A DNA stretch of 64,000 bases from assembly GCA_001692895.1 (NCBI GenBank), contig KV748185.1:2170001-2234000 (forward strand), read 5' to 3'. Each line of letters begins with the position of its first letter. Position 1 is the stretch's first letter. Under the pieces are notes generated by a model. That model worked only from the letters and a program-made list of their open reading frames with translations. It searched no databases and was not told the DNA's origin. The position numbers and the translations under genes were made by a program. Of the stretch, positions 21,997 to 63,400 are shown piece by piece. The DNA comes from Cenococcum geophilum 1.58. Lineage: Eukaryota; Ascomycota; Dothideomycetes; Gloniales; Gloniaceae.

Positions 21997-22240
21997 TATA
22001 TAAAGAAGAGAACTATCTAGGTAGGGATTATAGTCTTTTAAATATATAATACTGCGTCTAAAAAATATACTAAGTACGTTAGTACGTCCCATATTCTTAT
22101 ATTTCTAAATTTTTACGTTCTAAACTTATAATATAACTAGCTATATAACTTAGCTACACCTTATTCTATAGCTTAATTGGTTTTAGCGCGTCCTATACTA
22201 TCTTAACTAACCTATTTATATCTCTCTTTAGTAGTTATAC
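21997..22240. repeat. Right half of the diverged LTR relic
   Basis: It contains gaactatctaggtaggga, the next block of the Gypsy I-type LTR after the point where the left half stops. It ends near gtagttatac, where the Va element begins. The junction with 14854 is consistent with a TA insertion. The remainder of the LTR is not visible in the window. Confidence 0.55.
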
Positions 22241-22480
22241 TGTGGGAGGGTACGACCTCTCTAAGATGGGAAAGTTACAGTGCGGTCGGTCGGTCGGTTA
22301 GTTAATCAGTTAGTCAGTTAGTAGAACAGTCAGTAAGAAAGAAAGAAAGAAAAGAGTGTATTTCCGGTAACTAGTAAGGTCGTAATGTATATAATAGAGG
22401 GAAGAAGGAAGGAAGCCGAAGGCTCTATAAATAGAGGAAAATGCCAAGACAGTAGGCGACGTCCAATCTACACCACTACA
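22241..22480 (-). repeat. 3' LTR of Va
   Basis: It starts tgtgggagggtacg and ends ctacaccactaca, matching 36939-37195 and 43127-43383. It includes a run of GTCG/GTTA-type short repeats (about 22284-22335). Confidence 0.85.
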
Positions 22481-22659
22481 TACCTCCCCCACTAAGAACG
22501 TTGTCCCCTAACGTTCTGTACTATAAGAACAGCCAAACAAAAGTATAATAAAAGTAGAATAGATAAAGGAAAGCATATCCCTAAAAGAACGTAGGTAACC
22601 TTATCCTTAGCCCTACTATAAAACTGCTCTACGGCGTCCTTCTGTTATCCATAGCCAAA

Positions 22660-23080
22660 ATCTGATCTTCCTACTAGTAGCAACTAGGACAGCAGTAAAC
22701 CAAAAATAATAATGGCAGTAGTAACAGCAGCAATGGCAGTAACAGTAACAGTAGCATAAACAGTAATAAAAGCAGACAGTTAGCGCAGTAAAATAAAATA
22801 GAACAGTCGGCGGCAGAACAGTCGGTAAAAGAACTCGGTAACAGTTAGTAAGCAGTAGGACATTCAGCAACGGAACTTTTAGTAGCAGAAATCTCGGTAG
22901 CGGCAGACGGTTAATAGTAGTCGGTCGGTAGCAGTCGGTTAATACAGCAGTAGCAGTAGCAGCAGTAACAGAACGGTCAATGGCAGTTGGTCAGTAGCAG
23001 TCGGTCGAGACAGTAGGGACAAATAGCCGGACGGAATAGCGGTAGCAGCGGCAGCGGCAGGGCAGCCAAACAAGATAGCA
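22660..23080. repeat. Imperfect CAG/GTAGCAG trinucleotide-rich tract in Va
   Basis: There are long runs of cag, tag and aac-type triplets, counterpart to 37390-37990 in V. The open reading 22616-22870 on the minus strand is a low-complexity Cys/Tyr translation of this tract and is not taken as a gene. Confidence 0.7.
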
Positions 23081-23099
23081 GAAAATTTGGCCGTTTGAT

Positions 23100-24400
23100 A
23101 TCAAGACTCTGCATCTAGCTCTGCATCAGTCCCTGCATCTAGCTATGCGTCTAGCTGCGCATCTGGTTGTGCATCAGTGGCTCTGCATTGCATATTCTGC
23201 GTCCGTGTCTGCGTGCGTGTCTACGTGCGTGCCTATATATCTGCTTTGACTGCTGGCCGAAGACTATCTAATTGGTCGGCGACGACGTGCTGCAACTAAT
23301 CGTTTGGTCGTTTAATTAAGGTAGAAAGTCGGCCCAGACAAAGGTTCTGATTGTCCTAATTTGAATGCGGAGATGGCGTTTAACTAATTGAGATTTTACG
23401 AGGCCCTAGCTTAACTTAAGGTGTCTTCTACTACTGTTAAGAATTGGGTGGCTGGGCCCAATATAGGGTGGCTGTTACCAGCCACCTAATTATTGTTGTA
23501 TATAATACGAGCTTCTTACCCTACCAAATATCAAGAATTCAACCTTCCATCTTACATTTGACTCCCCTCAGTCGTTCATTTCAACAACTACATGTACGAC
23601 TAAGGCTTCGCATCCGTAGACGATTAATTAAAACTTCCGTGTAGACGTACAATCGGATAAGGCTCCACATCTGCCGTTCAATTAAGGCTTTACATATATC
23701 GGCGTCCAGTTAAGCTGCCGTACTGTTGTCTAATTAAGGCTCTGCACCTGTATGCTCCATATCCGTAGACTCCGTATACGACTCCGTGTGAGACTCCGTG
23801 TAAAGCTCCGTATCTATATCTGCAGGAAAGGTCGTTCTAGGTAACCAATCCGTGGGCGTCAAGACGGGCGGCAATCAATCAATAAGGGGGGGGTTAAAGG
23901 GAGAGGCTCTCGCAGAGGCTTCAAGACGTTAATTGGCCGTATTTCTGACGCTGTCGGCAGCATACTAATTTCCTAATTAACCCTAGTACCTGTCTATCTG
24001 CCATTGCAGGATCTTTAACTGCTGATCGAAGACGTCTAACGGCGACGGTGACTGACTCGACCGATAGTGACAACGTACGATCGACGGACGTTCAAATAGG
24101 GTATTAGGTCGGCCCAACTGAAGGCTCTAATTTAACAACTTAACTTGCACAGGCGGCGTTCGACTAATCAGGATTTGACTAAGGCTCTGGCTTAACGCAA
24201 GGTGTCTTCTACTGCACGTACGACCTGGGTTCTGCATCCGTAGGCTCTGCATCTGCGGACAACCAATCAAAACTTTGGCTATGCAGTCGTTCTATCAAAG
24301 CTTTGTATCCATGTAGTCAATCGACTGGGGCTCTGCATCCGTAGTCGATTGAGGCTCTCAGTGTCCACCAGACGTCCAATCCAGAGACCTATCTTAAGAC
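23100..24400. repeat. Degenerate GCTCTGCATC-type repeat field in Va
   Basis: Dozens of diverged units resembling ggctctgcatccgtag and cgattaaggct are scattered without fixed period. The same field lies at 38000-40150 in V. I see no coding potential. It forms most of the element's long non-coding half and may be structural cis sequence of the retroelement RNA. Confidence 0.6.
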
Positions 24401-24914
24401 TTCCTTCCTCGTAAGCATAAACGGCAGCTTCCAGTAGACCATTTTCGCGGGCCCGGTGTGCTTTTCTAGGATGTCTTTTGCGGCTGCTCCTTTGTCCCCA
24501 CTACAGGCAGTACGCTCGCGTATCCTTGGTATCCTCCAAAACCATCCAGTAACGACTTCTCGGTTGTTGTAACTACCTCCGTCGCATATCCCTTGCCCTT
24601 GTGTTCACAATACGGTCCTTCATCAAAACGATCTCTGAGGAAAGCGCTAACTCCTATACATCTAACTCCTGTTCCCTTGTAATCCTTAACAAGGCCCTTT
24701 ACTAGCTTAGCCAGATACGGCTTTGTCCTGTCTTCAGTCGCATAATGATGGCTTGGGCTTAACGTGGTCAGCCGTGCCCTATATACAATCTCTTGCAGTG
24801 CCTTTTTATATACTGCTTTACCGTTCCGCGGTGCTTATTTTTCAATATCATGCTGCTGCCTTTATACAGGTCCCTTCCCTGCCGCGGTGTCCGTTCTCAT
24901 CGTGCAGCTGGCGC

Positions 24915-25783
24915 CAGACTTGCTATTAAGCAAGCTGGCTTGACAGCTTGCTTGGCTTGCTTGATTGGTAATCAAGCAAGCCAGCAAGCCAAAAGAGGGC
25001 CTGCTTGCTTGCTTGCTTGCCCGCTTGATAGGAAATATATATATACAATTTCGGTAGAGATCTGAAGTTCGTNATAGATTTTTGGTGTTGTAGATGAACG
25101 ATTTTGAGTATGCAAATAGAGCAAACAGGACTATTTAGGTAACACACTAGCCGCGTGGCTCAAAGCTCTATCGACGCGTCGGACGAATACGAAGCTTAGA
25201 AGGCTCTGCCGCCACTACCAGACGATCACCCGTTGGCGTACGACTCAGCCGAAGCTCGCATGGATGGCTCTTGATATATTGACTATACTGGCTACAAGCG
25301 ACAACTGCGAACGGGCGTTCGGTGGGACTGATGATCTACTAGAACCGCGTCTCTCGAAGCTCCGCCCTAATATNATTGCTGCTTTGCAATGNAATCGCAG
25401 CTACTCAAGCTAACCGTTGGAGTCAACAGCAGGATCTTCCTACCAAGGCCTTCCTACCGAAACCTTCCTCACCACCATGCCAAGCCTTGTATAGACATCC
25501 TCAGCCACGCGAACTTCCTCATTACGTTATCTCTATGTTATCTTATATTACAATAACTATAAATCGGGGCTGCAGAGGAGCTTTTTGGCCAAATCGGCGG
25601 CTCGGAGGCATAATTTTGTATATTACTCCAAAATATCTATAAGATCAAACAAGCCTTCAAGCAAGCCAAGCAAGCCGACTGTTCCGACCTATCAAGCCAA
25701 GCAAGCCAGCTTTAGGTGCGAAAAGTTTTAAGCCAGCAAGCTAAGGCTTTCCGGCTTGGCTTGCTTGCTTAATAGCAAGTCTG
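24915..25783 (+). mobile_element. Non-autonomous hAT-type element carrying only a transposase C-terminus
   Basis: The TIRs start CAGACTTGCTATTAAGCAAG, and the flanking 8-bp duplication is gctggcgc (24907-24914, 25784-25791). The V copy of the same host sequence shows the empty site, with a single gctggcgc at about 39840. Dense AAGCAAGCC/GGCTTGCTT repeats next to both ends (about 24930-25030 and 25650-25775) look like subterminal transposase-binding arrays. The interior holds a hAT dimerisation-domain fragment. It is hardly RIP-altered. Confidence 0.88.
25147..25413 (+). pseudogene. hAT transposase C-terminal dimerisation domain fragment
   Basis: One open frame reads AWMALDILTILATSDNCERA followed by FGG and RLSKLRPNIIAALQ, ending at TAA 25411-25413. 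This matches the conserved end of hAT transposases (ALDIL...P.S..CER.FS...R..L....I..L), the part that mediates multimerisation. The catalytic RNase H-like core and the BED finger are absent, so the fragment cannot transpose by itself. Two ambiguous bases (25374, 25392) fall inside. Retention of just this domain within intact TIRs suggests internal deletion of a larger parent. Confidence 0.8.
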
Positions 25784-26172
25784 GCTGGCGCAGTACTGAA
25801 TTCGGATAGGAGCGGCAGTCGTGCTGCGATCAGTCGTCATTCGATTAAGGAACAAGGTCGGCCCGGTCGAAGGCTCTAATTTAACGACATTCGACTGACT
25901 CGATTCAGTGACGTGACGTGCTGGTATCGAGGCTCTGGCTTAATTCGATTCCTCAACCGGTCGTGGCTTTTATACGGTCGCTCGATTGATCAAGGCTTCC
26001 GTGCAGTCATTCGATCAAGGCTTTGCGTCTAGCTCTGCGTCTGGCTCTACATCGTACAATCGGCTCTGTATCCGTGCAATCAATTGAGGCTCTTGGTGCC
26101 GTTCTCATCGTACAGCTAGCGCATTTCCAGGGGTAGGGCTCTGCCGGCTTTATTGCTAAATAGACCAATTAG

Positions 26173-26199
26173 GATTTTCCATCCTGGGGATGGAAAATC
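26173..26199. repeat. Dyad module A in Va
   Basis: A near-perfect palindrome: GATTTTCCATCC, a short centre, GGATGGAAAATC. It sits 30 bp before the pogo I insertion point and corresponds to 40227-40253 in V. Confidence 0.75.
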
Positions 26200-26229
26200 G
26201 CTATTGGCTCGGTAACAGGCGGTGAGCTA

Positions 26230-26267
26230 ACGTGGGACCCCAGGAAGCGAGACACCCCCCTAGCGAG
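26230..26267. repeat. Left TIR of pogo I
   Basis: It begins ACGTGGGACCCC, pairs with 52847-52885 inverted, and is preceded by TA. Confidence 0.9.
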
Positions 26268-26655
26268 CCATTCGCGCCTATGCCTCCCCTTCTTCTTCCC
26301 CTGCCAAATTACACCCAAATCGAAAATTTCTAGCACAAATCACCATGTTCCTTCCTAAATTCAGTTCTCGCGAAGCCGAAGCCTCCATACAAAAAGCTAT
26401 ACAAGACGTCGAATTTGGCGTTGAGCCGTCGATTCGCAAAGCCTCCGACGTTCGCGCATTACTACCCTCTACCGTTGCCCATCGTCTTGCTGGGCGTCTT
26501 CCTCGACACCTGGCCTATAAAACCCTACTGCATGCTTATCAGGAGGATCAAATTATTAAATGGATACGCGAATGTTAGTCCTGGGGCTTTCCAATAAGAG
26601 TTAATATGCTTCCTATAATTAATTACGAACTCGTTCTTAGCAGAAGGCAGGGTTA

Positions 26656-28609
26656 CCCGTGGCATGAGTTTTCGCTCCGCTCAAAATCTCGCTTCGCTCA
26701 ATTCCACCTAGCAAGCTAGGTGGCCGCCAGCTCAGTGCACAGGCATGCCCAATACACAGGATAATATACAACTACAATTATTTCTTTACTCTAGGGCCCC
26801 GTGGTATAATAATTCCATGCGCCTTATTGTAGGCCCGTTGTACCTTCCTGGCAGTAACGTCTTTGGCCTTCTGCGCCTTAATAACCTTATTGGCCGCCCT
26901 TTTTTCTAGCCGATCTAGCCTCTCCCGTGCCTCTACTAGTTTTGCTAGCTCTGCATTATCAACGGCCTTACGTCCATTTTGTACATAAAGTACACCACCA
27001 GTTTGCAGCGACTGTCGAGCGTCACGACGAGCGTCCGCACGCTTCTGCGCCGCTGCTGTGGTGCGTGCTAAGTCCCTATGTGCGGCCTTAGCTGCAAATG
27101 CAATTGCAAGGCTTCCGCGCATGAACTTATCTTGCAGGATATTCCATGTCTCTTCACCTAGGTCTTCCTCACCATTAAGAAGGTTAGCTATTGTCTCAAG
27201 CATGCGTGCATTTAATGGTGTTGCAAGAATCTAATTATCTGTCGGTCCCGTAGGTAGCAACGGCGTGGCCGGTCGTGGCAGTAATAGCGGACGTATTTGA
27301 TTAATAACAATTAATGGATTAAATGGAATTAGGCCTGATTTCCTCCATACGCTTAGTATAGTAGTTCTTTTAAATATATCAAGTCTGACTCGATGTAGGG
27401 CCTATAGAAATTCCATTTTATTGAAGTTAATACAGCTATTTCGGAATGCACGGGCGACCGCTTTCCCGTACCAGTGCTTATATGGCTAGAATACTATAAC
27501 GTTAAGCGGCTAATAGATATGTGTAGTATGTGGTATTATAGCAAAAAGGATAATTGTATGGTCGTCGCAGAATTGAATAAACTGCCTAGTAAAATGGCTG
27601 GTGTGGCCATCTAGGATAAGAAGTCGAAATTTGCTAGTTTAACGCTTTGATGACCATAATTTAAAATGAATTGCCTACTGTAATAGCAGGTTATTATTAA
27701 TATATGCAGTGTCGCTTACAGCAAGTAGGTAATTGCCTGGGAGGTCCTCTGTCGTCTGTGTACACCACCGCTTTTGGATAGTTTTGCCAGCCAGAATTAT
27801 AAGTAGAGGGAGGACAGCGCCATCGCCAGAAATCGTCTCCGCAATAGTAGCAGATTCCCGGCTAGTATCCTTTGCAGCAGTAATTCTTAAGGCCTTAGAA
27901 ATAGTTGTAATAACCTTCTCCTTCTTGCCTACACCTAGGCGCACGCCTGTCTCATCATAGTTGTATATATCCCCCACTATAATATTATAAATGCCCACTA
28001 TACAATTATACTCTTTAAACCATGCCGCCAACGCAATTGGGTCCTCTGCTGCTTGTCTTTTAAGCTCCTTAGGATTCTTAGTATATAGGCTAAACTTAGG
28101 GTGCCGTCGTAGGAAGCGGGTTGTCCAGTGGTCGCCACAAAGTGGTGGGTCGCCTGGACCGGCGTGACGCGACGCGAGTATACAGTTACACTCCCACTCG
28201 AGTTCCTGGATTGTTGCACGCGTTCTAAGCGTGTCTTAGCGTCGAAGCCAGATTAGAAGGCCTTCCTCTTCTACTGTAAAAAGAAGCAGGTTGGTTAGTT
28301 GTCGATTAGTACGCGATACGCGTCCATTGACACGATTCTTGACGCGGTCGTAGTATGCGCCAAAATGGCGTGCAGCGGCGGCAATTGTGGTAAATTCGTT
28401 GGCAGTATAGGCAGCAGAGGCCTGTTGGACAAGGCTCTCCTCTTCTGCATACGTAGACGTCATAATTATGGTGTATTATTACGGTTGTAAGTAGGAAGTT
28501 GTGTTCTGTGCATTGAGCATGCCTATGCACTAAGCTGGCGGCCACCTAGCTTGCTAGGTGGAATTGAGCGAAGCGAGATTTTGAGCGGAGCGAAAACTTA
28601 TGCCACGGG
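26656..28609 (-). mobile_element. Second pogo-like transposon (pogo II), nearly RIP-free, inserted in pogo I
   Basis: The TIRs are about 105 bp (26656-26760 and 28505-28609), starting CCCGTGGCAT, with only a few differences. They are flanked by TA (26654-26655, 28610-28611). Each TIR contains an inner perfect palindrome, CCACCTAGC/GCTAGGTGG, and the near-palindromic GCTCCGCTC/GCTTCGCTC pair. One long minus-strand frame fills the interior. At 1.95 kb it is of full pogo size. GC content is far higher than in surrounding DNA. Confidence 0.92.
26778..28463 (-). pseudogene. Pogo II transposase (DDE_1 family), one frame with seven stops
   Basis: A single 562-codon frame from ATG 28463 to 26778 has no frameshift. 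It is interrupted by about seven TAA/TAG codons, each explicable as CAA/CAG with C to T. The N-terminus (MTSTYAEEESLVQQ...) contains AAAARHFGAYYDRVKNRVNG, a Psq-like helix-turn-helix, then a CENP-B-type half. The catalytic core shows YNYDETGVRLG (first Asp) and LLILDGHTSH (second Asp). The third block reads PLNVIVF, where Asp is expected and Asn is found. The tail is Ala/Arg/Lys-rich and probably coiled (26778-27203). The family performs TA-targeted cut-and-paste. Light damage suggests recent arrival or few copies. Confidence 0.88.
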
Positions 28610-29083
28610 TATAGGTAAACATTGGGGGGAGAGATTTATGCAACGCCACGAGCTCTATAGTATTATAAGTCGTCAATTAGATTGCTAGAGAGCCTAGAAC
28701 GATGATCCAGTTATTATTCGTGACTGGTTTAAGTTCTTTTAAAGCGTATAGGATAAATACCCAATTAAGCACTCCAAATTTATGCATAACTTTAACGAAA
28801 AAGGGGTAATGCTAGGCCTTGTAGCATTGGCCCGAGTAATCGTAGATGGCAAGACTAGTAAGGAGAGGTTAAAGAATCGGACTATTTAATAACCAGGAAC
28901 ACAAGAGCTAGTCTCTATAATTAAAACAATTGGCGCTAACGGCTCTTACCTACCTCTATTTATAATTTAGAAAGGGCAGTAATACCAGGAGACTTAGTAT
29001 TAAATTACTAAGCAGGATAAACGTCTTCGCGGGTATACCTATGCAACCTCAATAAAAAGCTAGACGGACGACTCGCTAGGCCT

Positions 29084-34900: not shown

Positions 34901-36938
34901 CCTTATCTAGCATTTTATTAATCCACTTTTTTATATACCTAAGTTTAGTAGGTAAGAGTGGTCTATTTTTATAATATAGGGCCTGGTTTCCAGGGATAAT
35001 CTCAATTTTATGGTCCCATAGTTAGTAAGGGGGCAGCTTATCTGCGTTTTTAGGGAGGAAGTGTTTAATATATTCGCGGAACTCCTTTAGTAAGCGTTGC
35101 AAATATCTTTACGGGTTAATCCTAGTTTGTCTTTTAGGAATTTTTTAACATTAGTATTAACTATCTTCCGGCGTAGAGACTTAGGCTTAGTTTTTAGGTT
35201 TGTTTTAAGGAAATTATAAAAATAAGGGGGTAGCGCTTTATAGGCTTCTTTTATTATATAGTCGCCCTCCACTAGCCAGCGGAAAGACTTTTTTAATAGG
35301 TTTAGTACTTCTATTAGGCCTATAGGCAGCTCTTTAAGTAGTTATTAATATTTTTCTTATTTAACTAGTTCTACTAGCTCCGCTATATAGATCCTCATTA
35401 CCTTTACGCCTTTTTATTTATAAAACTGGGTAAAATTGACGGTATAAGTGCATCTAATGTTGTCTAGTTTAGGGCGTATTTGGTTCTCTAGTACTATAGC
35501 TAGGCTAGCGCGGCTTAGTTGGCCCTAGGGGGCGGAAACGCGGCGGCGGCCCTATACGGTATGCGTGGGAGACGGATATAAGGTTGGGCGTTATGGGGGG
35601 AAGGTCTTAATTGCTCTAGTTTTGGTCTTAGCTGTAACGCCTTTAGCTGTTATACGCGCGGTCGTATATACATATAGCAAATAACTTAGAGTTAGGTATC
35701 TTATTAGCTGGCCTAGGTTAAGCGGGTGTATATAGGGGACTTATAGTTCTAGCGGTGTTTATATTCTTAGGGGTAGGGCGGTATTTCTTAGGGGTAGGGC
35801 GGTGGTCCAGTCTTCCAGAATCTCTATTTTGTTTACTGTGTATATTAGCTTACTAGTATTAGGTACCTCTTTTACTATTAGCTAATAGTATTTAAGCATT
35901 AGCCGTGTAATATGTCTATATAGTACTACTTGGTTATAATTAGGGATATACCATAAAAGACAGTTATAGGCATAGTAGTTAGAGTTAAACTTAAGCCCTA
36001 AAACGGGGAAGTTTATACTTAGGTTATACTTTTTAAGCTAGGGCATTTTAAGAATTACTAGTATTAAGGGTAATAACTTTATAATATAGAAAAGCATAAA
36101 TTCTGTATAGTAGCCGATTATTATTTTTATTGTAAAGTAATGGGTAATAAAGCTAGATCGGAGTCTATTAGTAAGGCGGAGTAGTTTTAGGACTAGAAGT
36201 CTTTTTATTATAATATTATGCTTCCTTATAAGTAAGTCTTTGTCTATAAACACTAGTACTATACTACTACTATTAATAAGGCTTACTATTTTAATAAGAA
36301 CTTTTAGGAGTAGGTTATATAGTAAAAAAAGGTAAGTCTAAATAAGGATGGAATTTCTATTATTATTTACTGTTCTAAGGTTAAATAGTAGCTAGCTTAG
36401 AATAAGGTCTAACTAATCTAGTAGTATAGATCTAATCCTTTTATCCTCCTCCCCGTATAGTTCTAACCCTTAAAGGCGACTTAATTTAAGGGTTGGCCTT
36501 TTAATAGCTGCGTTATAGGGCTTAGCTGGTGGCTATAGTTTTAGCTAGTATGTCCTAATATATTGGTCTCTAACGGTATATATATACTAGAGGGTACTTC
36601 GCCGATAATATAGCCGGTCTCACGGTTAGTAGTAATACAGAGTACTTGTCCGTAGTTTACGTATAGGACTATTAGCTAGGGCTGCGTTAGGGAAGGGAAT
36701 TATAGGGGTAGGTTTCTATATCCGAACCCATGTCCTCATCTATAGTTACCGCCTTAATTACTATCCCCTCTATTAAAGAATCCGCCGTGGCTAGGGGGGG
36801 GTTAGCGTAGTAATATTGGAAGGGGATTTAGGTTTTACTAGGGGTCGTAAGTATCTTTTTAATAGCTAGGTTAACCACACGCTATATAAAGTCTGTTATT
36901 TATATAATGTCTTTAGATATTATTAGGGAGGCTAATAC

Positions 36939-37195
36939 TGTGGGAGGGTACGACCTCTCTAAGATAGGAAAGTCATGGTGCTGTTAGTCAGTCTATCTGT
37001 CGGTTGGTTGGTTAGTCGGTTAGTTAGTTGGTCGGTTAGTAGAACAGTTAGTAAGAAAGAAAGAAAAGAGTGTATTTCCGGTAACTGGTAGAGTTGTGTT
37101 ATGTATATAATAAGGGAAGAAGGAAGGAAGCCGAAGGCTTTATAAATATAGGAAAATGCTAAGATAGTAGGCGACGTCCAATCTACACCACTATA
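36939..37195 (-). repeat. 3' LTR of V
   Basis: Same length as 43127-43383. The visible differences are C/T and G/A, more of them T and A here. Confidence 0.9.
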
Positions 37196-37999
37196 TACCT
37201 CCCCCACTAAGAACGCTGTCCCCTAACGTTCTACAATATAGAAGAATAGCAAAATGAGAGTATAGCAAAAGCAGAATAGATAAAGGAAAGCATATCCCTA
37301 AACAAACGTAGGTAACTATATCCTCAGCCTTCCTATAAAACTGTTCTACGGTGTCCTTTTATTACCTATAGCTAAGATTTAACCTTCCTACTAGTAGCAA
37401 CTAGGATAGTAGTAAACCAGAAATAATAGCGGCAGTAGTAATAGTAGCAACAGCAGTAACAGCAGCAACAGTAACGGTGGTAGCAATAGTAATACGGCAG
37501 ACAGTTAGCGCGGTAAAATAAAATAGAATAGTCGGCGGTAGAATAGTTAGTAGAAGAACTCGGTAACAGTTAGTAAGTAGCAGAACTTTAAGTAGCAGAA
37601 ATCTCGGTAGCGGCAGACAGTTAATAGCAGTCAGTTAGTCGCAGTTAGTTAATACAGCAATAGCAGTAGCAGTAGCAGCAGTGACAGAACGGTCAATGGC
37701 AGTGGTTAGTAGCAGTTAGTTGGAGGCAGGGCGATCGAAACGGTAGGGTATGGCGGTCGGGAGAGCAGCAGTAAAATAGTTAAAATAGCATTAGGCCTAG
37801 AGCAGGTCGGTTGGAACAGTTAGACGGTATAAAGATTTAGTAGACCTGGCAGTAAAATAGATCTAGTAACGACACAGATCTAGAACAGTAGAGATAGAGT
37901 AGTTGGTTGAGACAGTAAGGACGAAATAGCTGGACGGAATAGTGACAGCAGCAGCGGTGGCGGCAGGGTAGTTAATTAAGATAGTAGAGATTCTGGCTT

Positions 38000-40150
38000 A
38001 ATCTAATTGTTCAGTTGGCTATTTAATATTAAGACTCTACATCTAGCACTGCATCGGTCTATATTGTACGCAGCTTCTTAATCAAGGCTCCGCCCGTAGC
38101 TTTGCATCAGGCCCTGCATCTAGCTGTGTATCTAGCTATACGTCTGGCTACACATCTAGCTATGCATTAGTAACTCTATATTGCATATTCTGCGTCCGTG
38201 TCTGCGTGTAGGTCTATGTGCCTACTTTAACTGCTAGCCGAAGACTGTCTAATCAGTTAGCGACGACGTGCTACAACTAATTGTTCGGTCGTTCGATTAA
38301 GGTAGAAAGTTGGCCCAGTTAAAGGCTCTGACTGTCCTAATTTGAATGCGGAGACGGCGTTTAGCTAATTAAGATTTGGTAAGGCCCTAGCTTAACTTAA
38401 GGTGTCTTCTGCTATATATACGGCTAAGGCTTTATACCCGTAGACAATTAATTAAAACTTCCGCGTAGACGTACGGTTAGTTAAGGCTCCACATCTACCG
38501 TTTAATTAAGGCTTCTCCTATATAGGCGTCCAGTTAAGCTGCCGTACTATTGTCTAATTAGGGCTCTGCACCTATATACTCCATATTTATAGACTCTATA
38601 TACGACTCCGTGTAAGACTTTATATAAGGCTCCGTATCTATATCTACAGGAAAGATCATTCTAGTTAACTAATCCGTAGGCGTTAGGACGGGCGATTAAT
38701 CGATAAGGGGGTAGGTAGTTTAGGGAAGAGACTCTTATAGAGGCTCTAAAACGTTCTTCTAGCCGTATACTAATCTCCTAGTTAGGCCTAGTACCTGCAT
38801 GCCTACGTGTCTACCATTGTAGGATCTTTAACTGCTAATTAAAGACGTCTAACGGCAACGGGTAACTAATTTGATTTAACTGTAACCATACAATTGCCTG
38901 ACGTTTAAATAGGGTATTAGGTTGGCCCAACTAAAGGCTCTAATTTAACGACTTGGCTTGTATAGGCGGCGTTTAACTAATTAGGATTTAACTAAGGCTC
39001 TGGCTTAACTTAAGGTGTTTTCTGCTGCATATATAACCTAGGTTTTGTATCCGTAGGCTCTATATCTATAGATAATCGATTAAGACTCTAGCTGTGCAGT
39101 CGTTCTATTAAAGCTTTACATCTATATAGTTAATTAATTAGAGCTCTACATCCGTAGTTGGTTAAGGCTCTTAGTGTCCACCAGACGTCTAATTTAAAGA
39201 CCTATCTTAAGACTTCCTTATAAGTATAAGCGGCAGCTTCTAGTAAACCATTTTCGCAGGCCTAGTGCTTTTCTAGGATATCCTTTATAGCTGCTTCTTT
39301 ACCCTCGCTGCTGGCTGTACGCTTACGTATCCTTAATCTTCTTCCAGCTTAAGAACCTTCTTAGGGTTGTCTTCTGCTTTTAATCTCTTTGTTATTGTTT
39401 TACTAGCTCTGCGCTTTATCTAAGTTGTCCTTAGTATCTTTAAAGCCATCTAGTAACAGCTTCTTAGTTATTATAACTACCTCCGTCGCATATCCCTTAC
39501 CCTTATGTCTATAATATAGTCCTTTCGTTAAGATAATCTCTGAGAAGTGCTAGCTTCTGCACGTCTAATGCCTACTCCCCTTATAATCCTTAACAAAGTC
39601 CTTTACTAGCTTAGCCAGACACGGCTTGGTCCTGTCTTCAGTTGTATAAGGATGGCTTAGGCCTAAGGTGGTTAGCTATGCCCTATATACGATCTCTTAC
39701 AGAGCATCCTTGTCTTCTCTTATCTCGCAGTGCCTCTTTGTATACTACTTTGCCGTTTCCACGGTGCTTATTTTCTAATATTATGCTGCTGCCCTTATAC
39801 AGGTCCCCTCCTTGCCGTAGTATCCGTTCTCGTCGTGCAGCTGGCGCAGTACTGAATTCGGATAGCAGTGACAGTCGTGCTGCGATTAGTCGTCGTTCGA
39901 TTAAGGAACAAGGTCGGCCCAGTCGAAGGCTCTAATTTAACGACATTCAACTGATTTAATTTAGTAACGGCGACGTACTAATATCGAGGCTCTGCTTGAT
40001 TCGATTCCTCAACTAGTTATAGCCCCTATATAGTTAATCGTTTGACTAAGGCTTCCGTGCAGTCATTCGATTAAGGCCCTACGTGTAGCTCTGCGTCGTA
40101 TAATTGGCTCTATATCCGTGCAATTAATTAAGGCTCTCGGTATCCGTTCT
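38000..40150. repeat. Degenerate GCTCTGCATC-type repeat field in V
   Basis: It is the counterpart of 23100-24400. V has roughly 100 bp (about 39310-39420) that Va lacks. Units are diverged and unevenly spaced, with no coding signal seen. Confidence 0.55.
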
Positions 40151-40226
40151 TATTATGTAGCTGTATTATTGAGTTCTAGGGGCGGTGTAGAGTTCTGCCG
40201 GCTCTATTGCTGATTGGACCAATTAG

Positions 40227-40253
40227 GATTTTCCATTCCCGGGATGGAAAATC
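40227..40253. repeat. Dyad module A in V
   Basis: GATTTTCCATTCC, CGG centre, GATGGAAAATC. It is flanked by CCAATTAG and CTATTGGC, as in Va. Confidence 0.75.
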
Positions 40254-42687
40254 GCTATTGGCTTAGTAACAGGCGGTGAGCTAAACTGACATCTCTGTAG
40301 CAGGTCGTCGCGATTGACGCGTCTTAACGTGTTGTAATTAAGAAAATAAACAAGAAAAGGAGCTTTAGGAAATACAGTAATTAAGCAGACAAATAGAAAT
40401 CTTTTTATACGGCCGTTACCTGCACCCTCTCCCCCACCTTAGAACTGGTCAAGCGTCCGTCTCCAAGACCGTCTCCAAGGGTCGAACGATTCATTCTTCT
40501 TCTAAGCTTTAGCCGTCTCATCCGCAGGCTATAACCTAATCTAGATGGAATCTCCTGATCGTACATTCTTCTACGGCGGAGCCTGCGGTACCTGCTACGG
40601 AGCCTGCTGCGGAGCCTGCGGCTTAACGATTGTCCTGGCCGTACAGCTGTCTCTAAGGGTCGGGCGAGTCTGCGGACGTTGCTGGCTGGGCGTTACTACT
40701 AAGTCTGTGGGCCGTACTTAATAGCAGTCCTCCCAGTTCGTACGCATTTTATCACTATTCTTTAGCACTACTCCGTTATAGAAAGCCGGTTGCTACGTCT
40801 GTTCTTTCCTTAGCCTATCTGGGTTAGTTCCTTAGTACGTACACAGCCAGTTCTTAATACCCTTTAGCTGTCCTTTATTGCCGAGCCGCGGGAGTTCCGG
40901 TCTAGGTTGATCGCGTATTTTAGCTGCTAGTCTTCCTTAATCAGATAGATGTATAAATCCTTGCTAAACGAGATCCTTTAGGCCTTAGTATTTGAATTTA
41001 GTAAAACGGTGACCTCTATATCCAAAATAGGTCTGCCAGCCTTGTCTTCGTGTGCCTTACTAACCCCGTACGTCCCACTGCGGCCGTCCAAAGGCAGTAA
41101 AATCTTGCGGATATTGACAGTCCTGCGGATATTAAGAACCTTGCGGATATTGAAAACCTTGCGGGGGTTGAGGGTCTTGTGGAGGTCGGGTGTCTTGCAG
41201 GACAAAGGGAGCTTAGGTGCTGTTCTGCCAGTCCTCGTATCCTTGTGCTAGGCTTTAAGCTATAGCCTGATCCGCGGTAGGTGACTGCTGCTGTATTAAA
41301 GCTCCTCCATGTACGCCTAGTCTAGCCGGGTTAAGAAGTCTTCCTTCCCTTTAGCGGTCGAGCTCATTTCTTTACTGCCGTAGCTCTTATATCAGTTAGA
41401 CATTTAGGGGCTCTTTTTCTAGAAAGACTTCTATTCGCTCGGCGCCCTCTATAACCATTAACTTTAACTCTACAGCCTCCTTCAGTCTTTTAAATACAAG
41501 GGTACTAGGCTCGTCTGCTACGGCCCCTGTCTTCTCCATTACGTGCCTACGGTATTTAATAGGGAGTCCTCGTATAAACCACCACCCCTTCTCTCGCTCA
41601 GTAAGGTTTCCCGCGGCTACTGCTTTAGCTGAAATACTGGTGAAATTTTGCATATAGTGACGCAAGTCGCCCAGTTATTCTATAGATATTCGAACATAAG
41701 CTTCCACAAAGTCTCTTATCTCCATACGTTGGTAGTAGTCCTCGGCTTAATATTCGGTCCTAAGCCTTTTTATAAGCTCCGTCTAGTTACTAATTACGAA
41801 CTCAGGCAGGCTTCGGATCCACATCCCTATCCAATAATTGCAGTACTCCAGAAGGCCCTGGTGCTTCTCCTTGCTCGTGACGTAATATCGGGCGCATAGT
41901 CGTTCGTACTGCTCAATAAACTATAACACGTTCTGTCCTATAAAGTACGGAGTTCTAATAGTCCCTGGGGCTGGCATAGGCTGGGTCACAACGTAGATCC
42001 TGTCCTAAGCCGTCAACTACTGGTCATAGGGTGGTGCATTTAGAGCTTCCTCAGGAGCTTACAGGTGGTCCTTATAGCTCACATCCTTCGTCTGCTGAGG
42101 GTCATCGGTCCTAGGTGTCACGGGTAAACGCTATGGTAGGTCTGCTTGCATAGCCGTGGTCTTAACAGAGGGTGTCCCAGATAGCTGTCCTGGCGGGACC
42201 TTAATAGGTATATACTGCGGCTAGTCTACTTGTACAGCCATATCCCTAACGGAAGGCACCTACTTCTTAACGCCTGAGGGGGGGTCTTCCTGGGAGAGCA
42301 CGGAATCTTCATCACCTACTGCCACCGGGTCTCGGTACGTCCATCTATTTTAGCCTGTCATTATTCCACGCGGTAGGGTGCTGCTAAGCCTCTTGCTTTT
42401 ACTTACATCTACTTCTTTACGGAACGCCTCTAGAGCTACTACTGATATAATCCGGATAACTTAAAAGAGGATAAAGCTAAGCCAGAATAGGAAGCTTTTA
42501 AGGACAGATCCGATCTCATGTGCTTGCGACCTTGCTCAGTATTATCTCCTTTATTCGTAAATAGCAGTACTAACTTCCTTCGCCGCCAAATGTCTTAGAT
42601 CTCGTTTCCATCTAATTAATTAGCCCTTGGCTTATCGTCTTTACATCTTTAATAAAGGTCTGGCCATGCTTAGTAGTAGATCTCGGT

Positions 42688-45029: not shown

Positions 45030-45587
45030 GGCTTTTAGTTAAGTTTGCTAGGTTAATATATAATCTTAAAGTCAAATTATAAAAGGTATTTAGCCTAACG
45101 AATTTGGCGCTATATTAATTGCTTAGTAGTTATAAAGTACTGTAGGTTTTTATAGTCCGTTAATACGCATATTAGGAATAATAATCCTTTAAGTTCTAGG
45201 CGCTATTATTTAAAGCATCTAATAATTGTAAGCAGTTCCTTATTATATATCTTATAGTTTAATTTAGTAGGGGTAAGTTTCCAGGAGAGAAAGGCTACTA
45301 GGCGCAGCTCACCGTTCTTATTATACTGCGATAACACCCCTTTTAGTATATGATTAGATAAGTCTGTTTTAACAATATATTTAAGGTCTAAATTAAAGTA
45401 AATAAGGATTGGAGCAGTTATAAAACGATATTTTAGGTTATTAAAAGCTTGTTTACATTTAGTGGTCTATTTAAATCTTATATTCTTCCTTATTAAGTTT
45501 ACTAATAGCTAAACGATTTTTAAGAAGTAATTAATAAACTAATGGTAGAAATTTGCGAATCCTAGAAATCCTTAGATATTTTATATA

Positions 45588-45690
45588 CAGTCATCACCGA
45601 AATATCGGTAACTCGCTTAGGACGCGAAAAAGCCGCATCGCACCCCACCAAAATTTGTATAAGGGGTAATTCTTTTGATTTTAACCACCT
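45588..45690. repeat. Left TIR of the Tc1-like element
   Basis: It pairs with 48354-48455 in inverse orientation with about five differences over roughly 102 bp, and is preceded by TA. Confidence 0.9.
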
Positions 45691-45767
45691 ATTATAAGTG
45701 CCCAAATATTAAAGCTGGCGCGTTACCTAGTTAAGTCGATTATATAGAAATCTTAGTATTGCATCTT

Positions 45768-47384
45768 ATGGCGCCCCAACAGCAGCAGCCTACTTGATTA
45801 TTAGGTCGTCCTTAAAAGCCTTCTAAATAAAAGCGGGCTTAATCTATGCCTGCTTCTGCTATCCTATAGCCGCCTAAGAAGAAGGCGAAGAGGAAGGCGA
45901 AGATAGCGAAGAAGAGGCAGAAGACAATACCAGTACCATCACCGTCACCGTCACCGTCACCGTCACCATTATCGTCACCGTCACCATTATCGTTACTATC
46001 ACCGTCACCGTCACCGTCGCCGTCGCCGTCGGCGCCGGTAACGCCCGCAGAGCCTATATCTGCAGATGAGGTCAATAAGGGCGAGGATGAGAATACCGAG
46101 GAGCCTGTAGAGGTGGAAGATGAGGATATAGACTCGCCGCCGCCGCCGCCGCCGCCTGCACGCTTTACAAGTATTTGGAAGGCAGTTACGAGTAGTAAAA
46201 ATAAGTCTCTTCCTGGCATAAAGTCAGCTGTATTTAACACTAAAAATATATACTACGTTAAGCTAGATCTATAGCAGGACGAGGTTATATAACGTCTATT
46301 ACCACAGAAGTTTAAGATTACTTGGCTCCAAGCTATCGCCTTTTATAAGAAGGCCCGGTAAGCCAACTGCTGCCCTTAAGATATTTAGTTAAGTAAGGAT
46401 CTAAATCAAGCTCTCGCTATAATTAAGGAGTGGCATAAGCGCTAGCCGTTAAGGTCTCTATCCTTAAACTTCACCTTATATTTAGTTAAGGAGAAGGAGC
46501 CAGAGACTTAGGCTCCTACCGTAACTCTAAGTTAGCAAGTAGTTATTAGGCCTATAGGCAGAAGGACAGCTATATAAGCTTAACTTACCAATCTACCTAA
46601 CGTACTTATAGCTGAGGATGCTTCTAGTAATAGAATGCCGGCGATTATAGATAGGTGGCCTTATATAAATATACATTACCGTAATAAAGGCAAGACGTAC
46701 TAGTAGGATAAGAAGTCGCCCGACTTACCCAATACTATAATCAACCATTATCCTATTAGTATAGAAAACTTCCAGCAGTAGAATAAGGAGCTTCTCTCTG
46801 GTGACTCTACTATTAAGCAGCCGTTGTAACATCTTGTTGTTAACTTGGTTAACTACAAGGAGAGGAGTTGGAAGAGCTAGAAGGAGCCAGTAGTAGAGAA
46901 GGAAGATTCTACTACGTCGCATCTTAAGAAGCTTGCGTTAGTTATGCTTATAAAGGAGCTTAAATCTATAGATTAAAATCCTTACCTTTCTCAATAATAT
47001 CCTCCGCCATATTTAAATGTCGAAGCACCCTAAAACTTAAGCCCCGTTCAGTCGGAAATAGATCTAGTTAAGCTACTTAGCCAGTTCTTTAAGTAGCTAG
47101 CTAACTAGCTAGAGTTTAATAGCGAGAGGCAGAGTGCTATTTTGGAGTCAATTAAGGATAAGTTAGTAGAGGAAGAATAGAATATTAACTCGCTAAAGTT
47201 ATATAAGCCAGGTAAAAGTATAACGTTAGATTAGTAGGAGACCTATAACTTTAAGATTAGAACGCTATATAGAATTAGGGCTCTAATCTTAAAGTTTAAG
47301 CGATTAAGATAGTATCTGTCTATTAATCTATAATATATCCTGCTTCTTAGAAGTAAGCTCCTACGTATATACCATATACTTAAC
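45768..47384 (+). pseudogene. Unknown ~539-codon second frame of the Tc1-like element
   Basis: From ATG 45768 one phase runs without frameshift to about 47384, interrupted by about 30 stops: 29 TAA/TAG and one TGA, all explicable as C to T in CAA, CAG or CGA. Visible order: MAPQQQQPT; a basic nuclear-localisation-like KKKAKRKAKIAKKRQK; a Pro-Ser hexanucleotide repeat (about 45944-46025); an acidic run; a PPPPPPP run; then a mixed helical body (ARFTSIWKAVTSSKNKSL, FKITWLQAIAFYKK, PLRSLSLNFTLYL) and a charged tail. I do not recognise the family: no DDE triad, zinc finger, SET, helicase or membrane segment is seen. It could be a DNA-binding helper or a captured host gene; both are guesses. Confidence 0.75.
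45944..46025 (+). repeat. CCGTCA-type hexanucleotide repeat inside the second frame
   Basis: Tandem ACCGTC units with a few CATTATCGT variants encode a Pro-Ser run. The tract stayed GC-rich while the rest of the gene was RIP-altered. Such tracts vary in copy number. Confidence 0.8.
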
Positions 47385-48338
47385 TAACAGTAAAATATAA
47401 AAAGCTCTCAAAGCTCTTAAAGTCCTTAGCTAGCCGCTGGTTCCTTCTAATCCAAGCCTTAATATTATTAAACGTAGCCTTAATTAGATTATAATCTGGC
47501 GAGTACGGTAGTAGGAATTTTAGTAGGACGCCGTGTTGCTTACAAAGCTCTCGAAGCCGTGTTAATTTATAGATTAACGCGTTATTAAGAATAAGGACTA
47601 ATTATAGCCCTAAATATAGTGTATAATGGGGTAGTACCTACTCCTCTATAAAGGCTTTAAATATCGCAGAGGTAATAGAACCTTAAAAGATAAGGTAGCT
47701 GAGATATCCGTTAACTGCTAACGCTGGTAGAATACTCCACCTTTCTAACCTCTTAAGTACGCGTAATACAGCACATGTAGTCCCTTCTGGTAACTAGCCG
47801 TACTTCCTATCACCAGTCCTTTTATTTACTGCCAACTCATTAAGAAATATAAGCTGCTCTGCTACCTAGCTCTTCTGTATACCAATCCAGGCGTTGCAGA
47901 GGGGGGCGTTCCTTTAAGCTACACGAGCTATAACTACCTTCCGTGACCAATAAGCTCTCTTAAGAATACGGGCGATAGTTATAGCAGAGACTTGGGTGTC
48001 AAACTCGTTAAATAGGAAGGCCTGCATCTTATCTATATATGCGGTTGGCTAATCTTTAAGAAAGTCAAGGAGCCTCTACGTAGTTAAACAGTTAGCAAAA
48101 AGCTCAACACCATGACGCTATATATTACCATTTCTTGGTAGGGTAACAGAGCTCTCGGTCGCCCAAGAACAACGGTAGAAGGAGCGTATGGTTCGCCCCA
48201 AATATCAAGGTTTAATTGCATCTTATAAATCGTCTTCTTGGCCACCTTTACAGCCTCCGCAATGGCTGGTACCGCCTTACTAGCTTTAATACGAATCCTA
48301 ATTCTGTGAACAACTTTATCCGGAAGGCGGCGGCCCAT
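47323..48338 (-). pseudogene. Tc1-family transposase, RIP-broken, all three catalytic acids lost
   Basis: ATG at 48338 starts MGRRLPDKVVHRIRIRIKAS. A helix-turn-helix follows (AVPAIAEAVKVAKKTIYKMQ), then GRPRALLPYQE. One frame change is needed near 48125, after which the frame runs to TAA at 47323-47325. Conserved blocks read LNELAVNKRTGDRKYG, LILNNALIYK and LPYSPDYNLIKATF. The family has Asp, Asp and Glu where Asn, Asn and Lys now stand, all G to A on the coding strand. Several Gln/Trp codons are stops. The length of about 339 codons is normal for Tc1. The intact enzyme would cut at TIR ends and insert at TA; this one is dead. Confidence 0.88.
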
Positions 48339-48353
48339 AATAGCTTTAATTGT

Positions 48354-48455
48354 GGTGGTTAAAATGAAAAGAATTGCCCCTTATAGAAATTTTGGTGGGG
48401 TGCGATGTGGCTCTTTCGCGTCCTAAGCGAGTTACCGATATTTCGGTGATGACTG
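48354..48455. repeat. Right TIR of the Tc1-like element
   Basis: It ends ATTTCGGTGATGACTG and is followed by TA and resumed Gypsy III sequence. Confidence 0.9.
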
Positions 48456-51190
48456 TACTACTAGGACTTTTCTAGTTTACAATTACAGCAATTTTCTTAG
48501 GGTCCATTTTAATTCCGTTACGGGATATAATTAGGCCTAAGTATATAACTTTGGACGTATAGAACTTGCATTTCTTAATATCGCATTATAAGCCCGCGTC
48601 TCGCAGGCGTTTAAGGACTATTTAAACGTGCTTTTAATGCTTAGAAAGTAAAGACAAATAGATTAAGATATTATTAATATACGCGGTAATAAATACATTA
48701 AGGAATTCGCGAAGCGTATTGTTAATATATTGCTAAAATGTACTAGGACCATTCTTTACGCTAAACGGCATTACTAGGTATTTAAAAAGTCCCTATTGTA
48801 TACAGAAAGCTATATACTTCTTATCTCCTTTGCGAATACGGATTTAATTAAAGGTAGCAACTATGTTAAGCTTTGTAAAGTATTATACTTTTACTAAGCG
48901 GTTAAGCGTTTCTTATAGCAGAGGAATCGGATATTAGTTTTAAATTATAATTGCATTTAGGGCTTAATAATTAACATAGAATCTTAAGCCTTTTTTAGGT
49001 TTCTTAACGAATAGTATAGGTAAGATAAATAGTAATTAACTAGGGCGGATAAATCCTTTCTCTAGGTACTCTTTAAGGTATTATTGCATTATAAGTAACT
49101 CTTTTCGCAATATACCGTATAACGGGCCGAACTTTAGTATTATACTAGGTTTAAGTTCTATCTTAAAATCATGCTTATCTTAATATAGGGGTAGTTAGTC
49201 TACAAATTATTTCTTAAGCGTATTAATTAGATTATAATATTCTTTAGGTATAAGAGGTCGGGGGTTAATGTATTGCTTTAGTTCTAACGCCTTTTTAATA
49301 TCTTCTAGTGTTATAGCAAAGATCTTATGGTCTTGTTTTCTTGCTAATAAATAAAAGGGTACGGCTTATATTATACGAATTTTAAGAGGTTTTAATATAT
49401 TATCTTCGCATTCTTTACCGCGATTAGTAGTTATAACTTTATTATATTGGTTTAAAGTTTATAGCAAGGGTAATTTGTATTATATTAAATTTAAATAGTT
49501 ATATATATATTTATAGGGCAAGTAGTATTTTAAGTAATAACTTTAGCTATAGGTTGTATGGAATTTTAATATTTCTTTAACCCAGCTAATTAAAGGGTCG
49601 TGTTATTTTAGCTATCTATATCTAAGTATTACCTTATAATGCTTTAAGGGTGTTATAAATAGGGAAACGTATTTAAGGTATTCGCCTATCCGTATCTTTA
49701 TAAGAGCGTAGTGCGTTAGTTCACCATATATTAAAGGCTTGCTATTAAAGCCTTATAGGCCTTAGGGCTTATTAAGTTTCTTTAAATTTAAGTGTTAAGT
49801 TTTTGCGTAGTTTATATTAATAAAGCCTATATTAGTAGCTCCGCTATCTATAAGAATTTATACTTCCTTTTATTTTCTAAGTATTTAAATTTCGCTAAGT
49901 ATATTAAGGGAGTTATATTATATATTAGCACTAAAAGAGCCTAAACACTTATACTCTTCTACTTCTTATCCTAAGGCGTGACTTAGCCCTAGGATAATTT
50001 GTTTTCCGAATTAACTAAAGGTGAGATGCTTTATAGCGACTAAGTATAATTTATAAAATAAGTACAACTTAAGGACCGAGAGGAGCTACAGCGGACTTTT
50101 TTAAAAGGGTAAGTTCGGCAATCCCTTTAAATATATCCCTTTTTTCTATATCTAAAACATTCTCTATTTACGGCTTATGTTCTTTATTTATTAGTTCCTA
50201 AGGGTATATAGGATTAGGTGGCATTAAGGTCTATAGGGTTATATATAGGGCTTTTAGGTTTTAGAGATGGATCGCGCTTTGGGGTATATACTGGTTTTAT
50301 AGAGTTTTAAATATAAGGTATAGTTGGCTTTAGGGAACGAGTCTATTTATTATATTAAAGGTCCTTATTAATTCGTTAATATATTATAGTAAATTCGGGT
50401 AAGTCCTTTAGCAGTTCTCTACCTACTAACTATGCTCTAATTTTATCCAAAATAGCTTAGCAGAGAGCGGTAACTCTAGCGGCTTTATTCTAATCCAGTT
50501 CACTAATAAGGCCTAAAAATTCCGAAAAGAAGCTAGTAAAGTCTCGGTTCTATTATTATAGGTTTTTAAGTTTAGTAACAGCTATATATTTATAGCTAGT
50601 GTTATTATACGTTTATTCTAGTAGAGAGATAAGATTTTAAAATTAATAAAGGTGCTGTTATAGAAGAATGGGTCTATAGTTTATGTAGCGTCTTTATTTA
50701 AATAAGACATTCCATAGCTAATCTTACTAGCTTTAGTAGGGTATTAGTTATAGTTTGTTAAAAGTTTAAGACGGAGTTTAGTTATAAAGGGATATAGGTT
50801 ATTTTAATTTCTATTAAATATTAGAGGGTTAGGGAGCTTTTTAAATTTTGTAGTAGGTACTAGGTTTATTATAGGTATAGGTTAAGCTGCCATTACTAGT
50901 TTAGGGTTTATATTTAATGGGTTGGGTTCGTATATAGTTATTTTAATTTCGTTTATAGGTGTTGCTATTAGGGTCTCTAATATAAATACTTTAGCATTAT
51001 AAAGTTCTTTACGTATTGCTTTAATTAATTACTAATACTAAGCTTCTAGTATAGTTCGTTACTAGGCTAAGGCATCTATAAAGGACTATTGTATTATAGT
51101 TATTTATTCCCTAACTAGGGCTATAATAGTTGACGTGGTGGATTTAAGTTCGTTTGCTATTTTAAGGGTATTAGTATTAACATAACGTAA

Positions 51191-61873: not shown

Positions 61874-63400
61874 CTCTATATGGTCGCAATATTTATTTTA
61901 TTTTATAGGTCAATACTAACACTAATTAGTTAATTTAGAATAACCAAATATAATAGAATTCCCTTTTTATGGCTATAAGTCGCTTCCTAAATTGCAGGAA
62001 ACGCGTTAAGCATTTCTGTAATAAGTATATAATAGCTACCTTAAAGCCCCTTACTAAGGATAATATACTTTAACCCCACCACTGGAACGAGCTTAAATAC
62101 TTATATAATTACTTAGAACCCTTTTATAAGGCTACCCTTATAGTAGAAGGGAATGCGATAAATCTTGCAGACCAATTTTAAATACTCAATTGGCTCCTAA
62201 ATAAGCTTAACACTACAAGGCAGAAGTTCTTAGAGATTTTAGCTAAGAAGCAGAAGCTCCGGCAGAGCCGCTATAAGGCGTAAAGCTATAAATATCTTGC
62301 AGGCTGCGCAGAAGCTATATAGTAGAAATGTGAGAAGTACTTTAAGAAGGCAGATGTCACTGGAGCGTACTATGTAGTAATTATACTAAATCCAACACTT
62401 AAGATAAAGTAGTTTAAGCAGTAATAGGGGAGCTTAGATAAGAAGAAGAAGTGGATTTTAATAGTTAAGGCTTTAATTATAGAGCTCTGGCTTAAATATA
62501 AAGACAAATATTTAGTAAGGTCCTTAAATCTACCTTATTTAAACTCTCTACCGCGGCAGCTAAATTAAGAGAAGATATATACCTCTGCTTAAGCTTATAA
62601 GCGCCTTAAAGTCTTTTACCAAGATTAATTAACTCCGCTTAGAAAAGATAATCTTACAGCCTACCTTAAAACTAATTGCGAGCCTATCAGCGACAATAAA
62701 TACTTTGACGTTTTACAATACTAGTTAAATCGCCTTAAGAGCCAGCCTAATTTAGCTCGCTTTGCCCTTAATATTCTGGCGGTGCCTCCTATATTAGATA
62801 AATGCGAGAGGCTATTTAGCAGCTGTAAGATTCTACTTAAGGATTATTGTTCTTAATTGCGGATGGATATAGTTAAGGCAAATAAGTGTTTTTGGCACTC
62901 GTATAGTCGTCCGCAGAAAGGTATATTTGATAATTAAGTAGTTAGAGAGGTAGAAGAAGAGCCTACAACTCCTTTAATCTTACCCTTATAAGCTTCCGCG
63001 GCTCGCAAGGCTGCGAAAGCTCTTACTCTACTACCTACTAAACCTAAGGACGCTTAGGGCTTTGGCTTTGAGGAGGAGTTTAATATAATTAAGGAAGAAG
63101 AGATTAGCTCTAAGGAAGAGCCTACACCCGGCGATGGGGTGGTGGTTATTAATAACGATGAGATTATAGAGGAAGGTAATAAGGAAACTGATGAGCAAAT
63201 CTAACGATCTTTTTTAGTAAGTTTAAACGCCTCCTACCCCTAAATACAACACCAAAGTCGTGCCAAGACTTACTATAAATAGTATATATCTATACTGGAG
63301 CTCTGTGGCGCTCCTGGAGCCAAATCGTCTTTTTGGTGGATGGAGTGGATTTGACCTCGGATCTACGCCACTCCAGTCCAAATAGATCACTGGTGTGGCC

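Follow-up and report, generated by a model that had tools for sequence, protein, structure and literature searches.

Tc1/mariner transposases are regarded as self-sufficient, a property to which the wide spread of these elements and their use as gene vectors are attributed. The typical Tc1/mariner form is described as a single transposase open reading frame (ORF), with the Tec and TBE elements of ciliates, which carry extra ORFs, as exceptions (available excerpt of PMC7325037). In the wheat pathogen Pyrenophora tritici-repentis, a Tc1/Mariner family of 46 members was reported with a second ORF between the terminal inverted repeats (TIRs), both coding regions being full in 31 members; transcripts map to the second-ORF element, and the authors call its origin transduplication (excerpt of PMC3538342). 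The same excerpt describes AM-BAC-13 of Alternaria alternata, in which coding sequences like both Pyrenophora ORFs are arranged in tandem (PMC3538342). TremE and TremF of Paracoccidioides, likewise fungal Tc1/mariner elements, have two ORFs between their TIRs; in our reading the TremF ORFs (CENPB; DDE) look like parts of one transposase, and TremE is perhaps a further published two-ORF exception (excerpt of PMC2836289). Besides TremE/TremF, the Pyrenophora family was the only fungal Tc1/mariner system with a second ORF found in the literature, as far as the accessible texts extend (PMC3538342). The two-gene kind of fungal Tc1 element is already known from these excerpts, though thinly described. 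The first-pass annotation of the present locus had stated that Tc1/mariner elements typically carry only transposase; according to the sources available this is right as a rule (PMC7325037), with the Pyrenophora family, Tec/TBE and perhaps TremE as exceptions.

The element analysed here is about 2.87 kb long and lies in a 64-kb window, which is the whole stretch of DNA that was studied. A repeat search returned terminal inverted repeat arms at 45586–45689 and 48354–48457 (104 nt including TA, 95% complementary). Inverted-arm matching gave a left TIR at 45588–45689 (plus strand) and a right TIR at 48354–48455 (minus strand) of 102 nt each, flanked by the left (45586–45587) and right (48456–48457) copies of a TA target-site duplication. 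Excision of the element and one TA in silico left both flanks in one minus-strand reading frame, which crosses the junction and has 16 stops among its 310 codons. Read separately, the right flank matched RVT_1 (6.8e-22, Pfam) and the left flank RT_RNaseH_2 (7.7e-25) and RT_RNaseH (6.2e-20); the two remaining frames of the left flank had no Pfam match at E up to 0.1. The insertion site was assigned to the RNase H part (45101–45585, minus strand) and the reverse-transcriptase (RT) part (48458–48900, minus strand) of the same Ty3/Gypsy-like pol, which has undergone repeat-induced point mutation (RIP). Since rejoining of the flanks at one TA restores a continuous Ty3/Gypsy pol frame, the element ends are exact. 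The TIR-bounded unit at a TA inside the Gypsy-like pol is a real element, and the 102-bp TIRs and TA duplication of the first-pass annotation were borne out by the complementary arms, the TA on both sides and the restored pol frame.

The element was present as one copy (n = 1), with no further copies within the 64-kb window; the outer 30 nt of the TIRs had no other match there with up to 3 mismatches allowed. Inside the element, outside the TIRs and a tandem-repeat stretch, no repeat of more than 21 nt was reported. Signs of RIP were strong, with a TpA/ApT ratio of 1.61 for the whole window and 1.61 for the element. RIP indices in 300-nt bins were 1.8–2.1 in mid-element, covering most of the second-frame core defined below and the transposase end, and were lower towards both ends. 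The elevated values across mid-element indicate that both genes were hit together.

Elsewhere in the window, another inverted-repeat element with 106-nt arms (95%) was located at 26654–28611. It contains minus-strand stop-free frames at 27675–28235 and 26778–27230, the former with a sub-threshold match to HTH_Tnp_Tc5 (0.029), and gives the impression of a pogo/Fot1-like element. The bin 24001–28000, which holds much of it, had the lowest TpA/ApT ratio of the window's 16 bins (1.07). Two diverged direct copies of ~3.5–4 kb occur at 22237–26230 and 36935–40284, with most pieces at 77–81% identity and one at 69%. A tRNA-Ala (tgc) at 62949–63041 (minus strand) is, with 93 nt, above the usual length and perhaps contains an intron. 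At 563–904 (plus strand), a stop-free frame of 113 codons, some read as X, encodes a basic, Pro-Ser-rich and Glu-rich sequence that gave the impression of a retroelement gag start.

The transposase is encoded on the minus strand, with its ATG at 48338, 15 bp inward of the right TIR. Exon 1 (48129–48338) encodes the N-terminal region, probably a helix-turn-helix (HTH_7, 0.0033, below its cut-off). Exon 2 (47326–48075) contains the DDE_3 domain and is followed by a stop codon at 47323–47325, as read from the frame. Between the exons, a putative intron of 53 nt (48076–48128, minus strand; GTAATAT..GCTAACTG..ACGTAG) is suggested by the frame change and by GT, GCTAAC and TAG signals between 48128 and 48076, and would connect the two transposase frames. 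The frame change fits a 53-nt intron of fungal type, a feature absent from the first-pass annotation. Together with the RIP signature, such an intron suggests that the DNA comes from a filamentous ascomycete. Transposase introns of 124–276 nt are described for six Tc1-Mariner families of Sclerotinia sclerotiorum (excerpt of PMC4188875).

The claimed minus-strand Tc1 transposase was corroborated by the match of exon 2 to DDE_3 (PF13358) at 6.8e-21, which identifies a Tc1/IS630-type transposase; the NCBIfam IS630 model gave 7.4e-21, though below the model cut-off. In the plasmid collection, distant matches to exon 2 were obtained in 121 records; the 20 matches listed had 23–29% identity, and 12 of them were annotated as IS630-family transposase. 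Two scans of viral_contigs for the transposase and a comparison of exon 2 with PDB sequences, both being collections other than fungal genomes, returned no match. The catalytic positions of exon 2 were placed by motifs that we take to mark them, and all three are substituted (N, N, K). Counted by eye, 34 residues separate the second and third expected positions, an apparent DD34E spacing. Stops occupy 9 of 320 transposase codons (2.8%), and these together with the three substitutions mark the transposase copy as dead. The DDE_3 domain, the TA duplication and the TIRs place the element in Tc1/mariner. Instead of the single transposase-only ORF, which is typical of the group and not a strict requirement, a second frame with a coding signal is present.

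This second frame runs on the plus strand from an ATG at 45768 and has candidate ends at 47232, 47235, 47310, 47331 and 47385. Up to 47390 it contains 31 stops in 541 codons. The frame of about 539 codons in the first-pass annotation was found again, with a different end: termination at 47385 is probably too far, because transposase coding ends at 47326 (stop 47325–47323) and the 150-nt block from 47268 has a codon score of -3.6. The stop-broken second gene was set at 45768–47312 (plus strand; ATG to TAG at 47310, 514 codons). Including the final codon, this interval has 29 stops in 515 codons (12 TAA, 16 TAG, 1 TGA). The ATG lies 78 bp from the left TIR, and the probable stop (47310–47312) is separated by 10 bp from the transposase stop (47323–47325). 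The two genes are oriented tail to tail and together nearly fill the element. Near both 3' ends, an inverted repeat of 21 nt with an 8-nt loop (47247–47296) could serve both genes as a signal for 3' processing or pausing, or may be due to chance. An intron scan of the plus frame returned one candidate near the frame end; the scan is insensitive and says little, as the intron of the transposase was also unreported by it.

Two kinds of stop-codon evidence were discarded. The first-pass annotation had argued for coding because all stops of the frame could be explained as C-to-T changes. The argument is invalid, since all stops begin with T and TAA, TAG and TGA can be read as C-to-T products of CAA, CAG and CGA in any frame of any DNA; it was rejected as a tautology. 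The number of stops was rejected as weak evidence on its own. Shuffled sequences had 44.3 stops on average where the plus frame has 29 (P 0.0045 for this one frame), but one antisense frame has fewer (25). A six-frame minimum as low as the observed one occurred in 2.1% of shuffles when the full frame was taken and in 7.4% when the core was taken. Stop density was 5.6% in the plus frame, 5.2% in the neighbouring RT frame and 2.8% in the transposase. The core has 24 stops and no TGA (shuffle mean 2.1), a pattern expected from RIP at CpA and weak when taken alone (P 0.10); one other plus frame likewise lacks TGA.

Coding tests were performed on a core of 1143 nt (46170–47312) that excludes the low-complexity repeats. 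Codon usage was learned from the transposase, a small training set of 320 codons. With it, the plus frame scored 37.0 and the next of the six frames 2.6; this score was reached by 0 of 2000 shuffles and the gap by 6 of 2000. The plus frame was best in both halves of the core; when its length was divided into 11 blocks of 150 nt, it came first in 6. Among other 1143-nt windows of the 64 kb, 19 of 154 reached the codon score and 18 of 154 the gap; several of the high-scoring ones overlap long ORFs at 26778–28235. With RT-trained usage the plus frame was best over the whole core, at a score reached by 43 of 1000 shuffles, and an antisense frame won the second half. Both positive controls (RT and transposase) were best on the wrong strand, so that the strand cannot be assigned from codon usage by itself, and the codon test was rejected as sole strand evidence. 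Amino-acid composition was scored against values that we take to represent Swiss-Prot. The plus frame had -3.6 and the five other frames -22.5 to -70.7 (0 of 1000 shuffles); it was as protein-like as the transposase control (-3.9, P 0.002). The composition test can miss real genes, as the RT control was undetected (P 0.519). From codon usage, composition and layout, the plus frame is very probably coding sequence. These three lines uphold the convergent second gene that had been claimed within the TIRs, in place of the invalid reasoning from stop type. The first-pass interpretation is supported in part; its reading of the product as a helper protein or captured host gene is weighed below.

The translation of the second gene contains all features claimed for it in the first-pass annotation, namely a basic block, a Pro-Ser run, an acidic run and poly-Pro. 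The basic, NLS-like block (45870–45926, residues 35–53) has 11 K/R among 19 residues. It is followed by the Pro-Ser run (45927–46043), which is encoded by the tandem-repeat stretch, and by an acidic stretch with seven prolines after it (46044–46157). Single-sequence AlphaFold modelling suggested, at low confidence, a possible small alpha/beta domain of ~120 residues (46158–46517) and a helical C-terminal part (46938–47309) with weak heptad-like periodicity near residues 419–460; in two of the eight segments examined, the uncorrected P for periodicity was about 0.01. The pLDDT was 36.9 for the 391-residue core (best 10-residue block 61) and 51.5 for a 107-residue piece (best block 66). A fold search with this piece produced 48 hits, all of them weaker than E 0.001 (best 0.37).

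No family above cut-off was found for the second protein in Pfam (searched whole, in pieces, and as core with TAG read as W) or in NCBIfam, nor any domain of an accessory role in these two databases. Matches of pieces to UN_NPL4 (0.027) and DUF7628 (0.12) were below the cut-offs and were rejected as chance. Seven PDB sequence matches (best E 0.24), mostly to the low-complexity N-terminus, were rejected as well. Further searches covered collections other than fungal genomes. In viral_contigs and genome_contigs, patterns for the second protein matched and none was confirmed, and an exact 24-mer of the outer TIR had 0 occurrences in each. The phage collection contained no relative of the second protein, and the whole element had matches in 3 plasmid records, all confined to the tandem-repeat stretch.

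Published systems were compared by description only, from the available excerpts. The Pyrenophora family resembles the present element as a fungal Tc1/mariner with transposase and second ORF between the TIRs. Its second ORF matched the coiled-coil model PF08946, and the C-terminus here is predicted, at low confidence, to be helical; PF08946 was unreported for the second protein at E up to 5 (whole) or 10 (two pieces), in a heavily mutated copy and with HMMER dropping weak matches. The Alternaria pair is in tandem, whereas the genes here are convergent. TremE/TremF differ by shorter TIRs of 42–43 bp and a smaller overall length, and are compared in their report with other Mariner families, Mariner-1_AF and Mariner-9_AN (PMC2836289). 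Tc1-MP1 (141-bp TIRs, DD34E) and Tc1-OP1 (169-bp TIRs) share a Tc1-type DDE transposase, long TIRs and TACA/TGTA ends with the element; in contrast to it they have a single ORF, with a serine-rich domain inside the transposase ORF in Tc1-OP1 (DD40E) (PMC9977792). Tec and TBE are alike in being Tc1/mariner elements with extra ORFs, one of three lying in the complement in Tec, and have DD34E, the spacing that is apparent here (PMC7325037). They differ in that they carry three ORFs, whose products include a zinc finger protein in TBE and a site-specific recombinase in Tec, neither seen here, and they are confined to ciliates. A second, non-transposase protein in a DNA transposon is also described for PHISTA of Puccinia (TET/JBP) and for Nuwa (Myb/SANT) (PMC12730594). 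These belong to a PIF/Harbinger-related superfamily, and no TET/JBP or Myb/SANT domain was found here with Pfam.

Three other explanations of the plus-strand region were weighed. The second frame could be a captured host gene or fragment (transduplication), carried as passive cargo with no role in transposition. Such capture by fungal DNA transposons has been reported, and the Pyrenophora Tc1/Mariner case was so read by its authors (excerpt of PMC3538342). However, the frame here takes up almost precisely the interval from the TIR to the transposase: its ATG is near the TIR and its probable end near the transposase stop. The published Pyrenophora-type pair is, moreover, present in two genera. 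Low-complexity linkers and the lack of a Pfam family would also be less like a conserved host gene, and capture is considered somewhat unlikely.

A nested insertion, with the plus region as the remnant of another mobile element inside a one-gene Tc1 copy, would suit a repeat-rich window in which at least one nested insertion, that of the element into the Gypsy-like pol, has occurred. Yet the extra DNA extends from the TIR to the transposase stop, the plus region has no match among the retroelement and transposase families of Pfam and NCBIfam, and the element has no repeat above 21 nt besides its TIRs and tandem-repeat stretch, which together make this origin improbable. That the region holds no gene at all, being a stop-poor register of non-coding DNA whose stop count is lowered by low-complexity repeats, would agree with the weak stop depletion, the antisense frame with fewer stops, the void stop-type argument and the limits of the codon test. 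It is, however, very improbable, as the repeat-free core exceeds all shuffles in codon usage (0 of 2000) and in composition (0 of 1000).

To the remaining explanation we give an even chance: a dead, RIP-mutated two-gene fungal transposon of Tc1 type (DDE_3, apparent DD34E), whose second protein would be a nuclear accessory. In a two-gene element of this kind, each TIR may act as promoter of the adjoining gene, and the transposase would cut and paste the whole two-gene unit. The second protein would consist of a basic N-terminus, a flexible Pro-Ser/acidic linker, a small folded region and a helical C-terminus. It would be located in the nucleus, where it may bind DNA, chromatin or the transposase and thereby aid the transposase or the expression of the element. 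An accessory role is proposed by analogy with the additional proteins encoded by Nuwa or by fungal transposons that carry TET. More tentatively, and with clearly less confidence, the element may represent a fungal Tc1 lineage with a dedicated, co-inherited convergent gene, whose nuclear product would be required for transposition or would shield the element from silencing or RIP.

The compact tail-to-tail layout at this locus lends further support to the view that such a second gene can be built in, where the available excerpt of the Pyrenophora report called its ORF captured (PMC3538342). A stable second gene in fungal Tc1 elements would be an exception and would raise the question, worth testing, of whether its product aids transposition or counters genome defence. 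If true, a dedicated second gene would constitute a two-component Tc1 system outside ciliates.
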